Shown one piece after another: positions 8,784-9,242 of a DNA stretch of 64,000 nucleotides (position 1 is the stretch's first letter; every line of letters begins with the position of its first letter). Below the pieces are notes generated by a model. It worked only from the letters and a program-made list of their open reading frames with translations. It searched no databases and was not told the origin of the DNA. The DNA is from Urbifossiella limnaea (GTDB lineage: Bacteria; Planctomycetota; Planctomycetia; Gemmatales; Gemmataceae). The position numbers and the translations under genes were made by a program. The stretch is from the NCBI RefSeq assembly GCF_007747215.1, contig NZ_CP036273.1, positions 5,440,322-5,504,321 of the forward strand. Direction: 5' to 3'.

Positions 8784-9137
8784 TCAGTCGCCGAGCACCT
8801 GTCGGTACGCCGCCTCGCTGTACCCAACCACGAGCGTGGTGCCGACGCGGGCCGTCGGCGCCCGCAGGTTGCCGGTCGGCCCCATCAGCCGGGCCAGCAG
8901 TTCCGCGTCGGTCGGCCGCTCCGTCTTCAGGTCAAACGTCTCCAGCTTCTTCCCCTTCGCCGCGACGAGCGTGCGAACGCCGTCAAGGAGGGCGAGCGCC
9001 TCGTCCGGGCCGAGGCGAACTTTCGAGGCGTCGACGGTTTCGCCCACCGCGACGCCGGCCGGCCCGAGGAACCCCCGGGCATTCTGGCACGTCACTCAGG
9101 ACCGGCGGAAGTACAGCCAGTCGATGTCACGCGGCAC
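8784..9137 (-). CDS. ArsC/Spx-family protein, probable selenoprotein (in-frame TGA = Sec14, UxxC motif)
   Basis: From GTG 9137 the frame reads 117 residues if the TGA at 9096-9098 is decoded as selenocysteine. Residues 7-20 read WLYFRRS-U-VTCQNAR, which aligns with the active-site segment of ArsC/Spx proteins (compare SCTSCRKAR in Spx-like proteins), so the TGA sits exactly at the catalytic cysteine. Cys17 completes a UxxC redox motif. The C-terminus (NLRAPTARVGTTLVVGYSE) matches the cis-proline and RLLVGF-like end of the fold. A SECIS-like hairpin begins 15 nt after the TGA. Without readthrough the protein would begin at a GTG just after the TGA and lack its first strand and nucleophile. ArsC-family selenoproteins are known in bacteria. 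The role is probably thiol/selenol reduction; the substrate is unknown. Confidence 0.85.
9062..9080 (-). promoter_or_regulatory. SECIS-like hairpin downstream of the Sec TGA
   Basis: On the minus strand, after the TGA and 15 nt, an 8-bp stem forms between 9080-9073 and 9069-9062 (one G-U pair), closed by a GUU loop at 9072-9070. The apical loop lies 23 nt after the TGA. Bacterial SECIS elements typically have a small loop with G among its first bases about 16-37 nt after UGA. This hairpin meets both conditions and lies inside coding sequence, as expected in bacteria. SelB binding is inferred. Confidence 0.72.
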
Positions 9138-9161: not shown

Positions 9162-9242
9162 AATCTCGTGCGAAGGCGCAAGGCCGCCAGAGAGAATGAT
9201 CGGCTCCGCCCTTCTGGCGGCTTTGCGCCTTCGCGCGAGATT
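9162..9242. repeat. Imperfect inverted repeat, 29-bp arms
   Basis: The arms at 9162-9190 and 9214-9242 pair with two mismatches around a 23-nt spacer. It lies between the end of the propeller gene (minus strand) and the start of the selenoprotein gene, so it may terminate the former. The spacer is not recognisable as a gene. Confidence 0.7.

Follow-up and report, generated by a model that had tools for sequence, protein, structure and literature searches.

A predicted ArsC/Spx-like selenoprotein with a UxxC active site encoded by the planctomycete Urbifossiella limnaea

ArsC-like selenoproteins were reported in 2006, with an example in Desulfotalea psychrophila (PMC1794560), and an 'Arsenate reductase 2' (cd03032) carrying a UxxC motif was described in the Global Ocean Sampling selenoproteome of 2008 (PMC2398784). 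The family NF041106, also with UxxC, is listed in a 2026 review (PMC13188914), which cites reference 61 for this family; going by its position among the references, this is the same 2008 study (PMC2398784). For Planctomycetes, selenoproteins have been on record since 2016 (PMC4807772). The gene described here has in common with the 2006 proteins a selenocysteine in an ArsC-like protein, although the subfamily may differ, and with 'Arsenate reductase 2' an ArsC-type fold with UxxC, the latter being represented by marine metagenome sequences whereas the present gene lies in a complete planctomycete genome. Its closest counterpart is NF041106 itself (ArsC_rel_Se_1), with a full-length match, UxxC at the same place, and no notable difference. 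There is very little doubt in our view that the gene encodes a selenoprotein of this ArsC/Spx-like family in which UGA is read as selenocysteine at the active site; selenocysteine insertion is near certain, by inference. The family is already catalogued, and the finding is correct and known in kind.

The window, a stretch of 64,000 nucleotides from the U. limnaea genome (contig NZ_CP036273.1), contains the ArsC/Spx-like frame on the minus strand, running from 9137 to 8784 and encoding 117 residues with the selenocysteine at position 14 (Sec14) counted. It begins with a GTG codon at 9137–9135, which aligns with the ATG of two relatives of the same genus (L067 and L068), and closes with a terminal TGA at 8786–8784. 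The internal TGA at 9098–9096 is codon 14 and is the sole in-frame TGA before the terminal one; together with the Cys17 codon (9089–9087) it forms the motif U14-V-T-C17. Re-reading of the frame reproduced exactly the coordinates, strand and in-frame TGA given by the original prediction, which had also warned that an annotation stopping at TGA would overlook the protein or trim its active site. A standard open reading frame listing indeed keeps just the part after the TGA (8784–9095, 103 amino acids), and any annotation that reads UGA as a stop would shorten the gene in this way.

When translated through the TGA, the product matches the NCBIfam model NF041106, 'ArsC family (seleno)protein', with 131–132 bits (131.1 and 132) over 107 of 107 positions, compared to a curated cut-off of 85 bits, and the UxxC/CxxC position of the family is filled by the TGA at codon 14 and by Cys17. 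The match to Pfam ArsC (PF03960) is 24.8 bits, barely above the cut-off of 24. An ArsC/Spx-family selenoprotein with UxxC had been proposed from the letters of the DNA, and these matches support it, the family being catalogued as a UxxC selenoprotein. In an alignment of 59 sequences the invariant residues are R11, C17, G86, G89, L91, P94, and G105; Cys17 is the likely resolving cysteine.

The AlphaFold2 model, computed with 59 homologues, has a thioredoxin-like fold (mean pLDDT 91.7, pTM 0.81) in which residue 14 immediately precedes helix 1 (residues 15–27); the original prediction had placed the TGA at the catalytic cysteine of the fold. Foldseek comparison with the PDB ranks Spx and ArsC-related structures first, with E values from 2e-4 and modest TM scores of about 0.5. 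Spx (PDB 6gho, 3ihq, and 1z3e) and YffB (1rw1) share the predicted fold and, where helix 1 begins, have an active site of CxxC type, but carry Cys where the window protein has Sec, and identity is just 19–26% over the alignments. The 117-residue product is predicted to fold as an ArsC/Spx domain of thioredoxin-like type with Cys17 one turn after Sec14, in which Sec14 would probably be the attacking selenolate and Cys17 would resolve the reaction via a selenenylsulfide.

The family is present in 66 of 294 genomes sampled from the phylum and in 42 of 59 close-relative genomes by whole-genome family search; none of the plasmid records searched encodes a homologue. Among 104 planctomycete homologues the position of codon 14 is TGA in 84, Cys in 19, and Asp in one, and the occurrence of TGA in 84 of 104 genes at one codon is far beyond chance. 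Relatives thus carry TGA or Cys at this codon, the exchange to be expected of a selenoprotein, and homology extends on both sides of it; a true stop in all close relatives, or a lack of homology upstream of the TGA in them, would have counted against the original prediction, and neither was found. Mapped onto a tree built without the codon-14 column, a tree that draws on few columns and is in part poorly resolved, the Sec/Cys label has changed at least 11 times, with seven changes forced by well-supported branches. A search for SelA covering 80 genomes was positive for 51 of the 52 Sec-bearing genomes it included, versus 10 of 19 Cys-only genomes. With Sec and Cys exchanged repeatedly, and with the covarying hairpin described below, the set of 104 homologues makes a tidy case of Sec/Cys replacement, the principle of which has already been described.

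The one Sec-bearing genome where SelA was not found is G315, with the Sec gene L117; G315 is a 95% complete draft of about 280 contigs, and the absence is likely an assembly gap, or else reflects a decaying Sec system. The homologue in which Asp replaces Sec (L081:1606–1941) reads D-x-x-C and belongs to genome G045, where a Sec copy (L092) is present as well; the redox role of the Asp copy has presumably been altered or lost.

The genome containing the window, a single contig of 7.80 Mb, encodes all of the components that the original prediction depends upon, as seen from family searches for selA, selB, selD, and tRNA-Sec (selC). The SelA (542.6 bits), SelB (370.3 bits, across two pieces in one frame), and SelD (384.1 bits) matches are each over the family cut-off, as is a tRNA-Sec of 78 bits with a UCA anticodon; one further RNA match exceeds the gathering score, and this is an ordinary tRNA-Ser. 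The gene and this machinery indicate that selenocysteine is used in this planctomycete. A second selenoprotein was sought via FdhA, and the best FdhA-like gene (L131, genome positions 703297–705420) is without an internal stop and does not look like one.

Downstream of the internal TGA is a bacterial SECIS-type hairpin (9080–9062, minus strand), GCCCGGGG-GUU-CCUCGGGC, with an 8-bp stem and a loop that begins 23 nt past the UGA; it is the minimum-energy fold, it is located shortly after the UGA, and a G stands early in its apical loop. An Rfam search of the window gave no match at gathering thresholds. In the proposed mechanism, suggested by the machinery and the hairpin, SelB carrying Sec-tRNA(UCA) would recognise this structure and decode the UGA at 9098–9096 as selenocysteine. 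The hairpin is present just as first described, with its 8-bp stem, GUU loop and 23-nt spacing, and it covaries in relatives, but as an argument from a single sequence it is weak because its folding energy is unexceptional for a sequence this rich in GC (not significant relative to dinucleotide shuffles, z −0.58). Against synonymous codon shuffles the z is −2.78, with 13% of the shuffles still forming a SECIS-like hairpin.

The significance of the hairpin comes from comparison across relatives. Compensatory changes are seen in seven of the eight stem pairs among 38 Sec relatives, with 46 two-sided cells compared to 15.5 in shuffles and none of 500 shuffles as high; 29 of these 38 are Sec genes taken from the close-relative search regardless of hairpin, while the other nine were chosen by eye because their hairpins looked similar, a selection that biases the set toward this result. 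With all 84 Sec genes placed in the register of the window, 4.71 of 8 pairs form versus 4.19 for swapped arms (sd 0.07), whereas Cys genes in the same register pair no better than their swapped arms (3.28 versus 3.23, sd 0.16). A similar distinction is apparent against synonymous shuffles, where the 84 Sec homologues have a mean folding z of −1.82 and a SECIS-like hairpin in 71% versus 36% expected, and 18 Cys homologues have a mean z of −0.90 and such a hairpin in 39%, the same as the 39% expected. In many other Sec genes this hairpin has a loop of four bases, AGUU.

Another kind of hairpin follows the UGA in some Sec genes, among them L045, L046, L047, L085, L086, L092, and L098, with the loop about 25–27 nt downstream and without GUU. 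These alternative hairpins, found in some planctomycete families, often have strongly negative z values against synonymous shuffles, and we tentatively consider that the lineages concerned may use a differently built SECIS stem-loop, although this is rather doubtful; if true, it would suggest a lineage-specific SECIS code that co-evolves with SelB.

A conventional reading of the locus takes the UGA as a true stop, with the downstream frame being either a pseudogene remnant or a shorter, separate protein initiated after the TGA, and we note that the standard open reading frame (8784–9095) does begin with a GTG directly past it. We regard this as very improbable and have rejected it, since the relatives keep both the TGA, at the same codon in 84 homologues, and the conserved flanks on either side. 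The presence of the Sec machinery in the genome also speaks against a stop, and according to the AlphaFold2 model the truncated form would be without strand 1 and the catalytic residue.

With UGA read as selenocysteine, the alternatives that follow concern function only and would be refinements of the assignment. We somewhat favour a role as a small selenol/thiol oxidoreductase, in which Sec14 and Cys17 would act in the way proposed above. The protein could instead be a selenium-dependent arsenate reductase, in which Sec14 would attack arsenate, with the reduction then finished by Cys17 or by a partner thiol; the Pfam ArsC match, the ArsC structures among the fold matches and the published name 'arsenate reductase-like' all point in this direction, but no ars genes were recognised directly adjoining the gene (flanking frames judged by eye), and Spx and generic ArsC-related proteins are better matches than true arsenate reductases, such that we consider this role unlikely. 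Less likely still is an Spx-like redox-sensing regulator that would bind the RNA polymerase alpha subunit and use the UxxC pair as a switch. Spx tops the fold matches, and 54 of 59 members of the alignment reach E ≤ 0.001 with TIGR01617, the Spx/MgsR model; however, the window protein itself scores 20.7 bits with this model, far below the cut-off of 75.05, and differs in this respect from the Spx family proper.

The frames flanking the gene resemble, by eye, a PQQ-type beta-propeller protein and a sigma-factor-type protein, and in nine relatives neither of these two frames was found within about 1.5 kb of the homologue. Just upstream of the GTG is an inverted repeat (9162–9242) with 30-nt arms that are 93% complementary and 21 nt apart. 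A search of the genome for its 22-nt core at up to two mismatches recovered no other copy, with one weak similarity only; the repeat may serve the upstream gene as a terminator, or it may be a regulatory stem.
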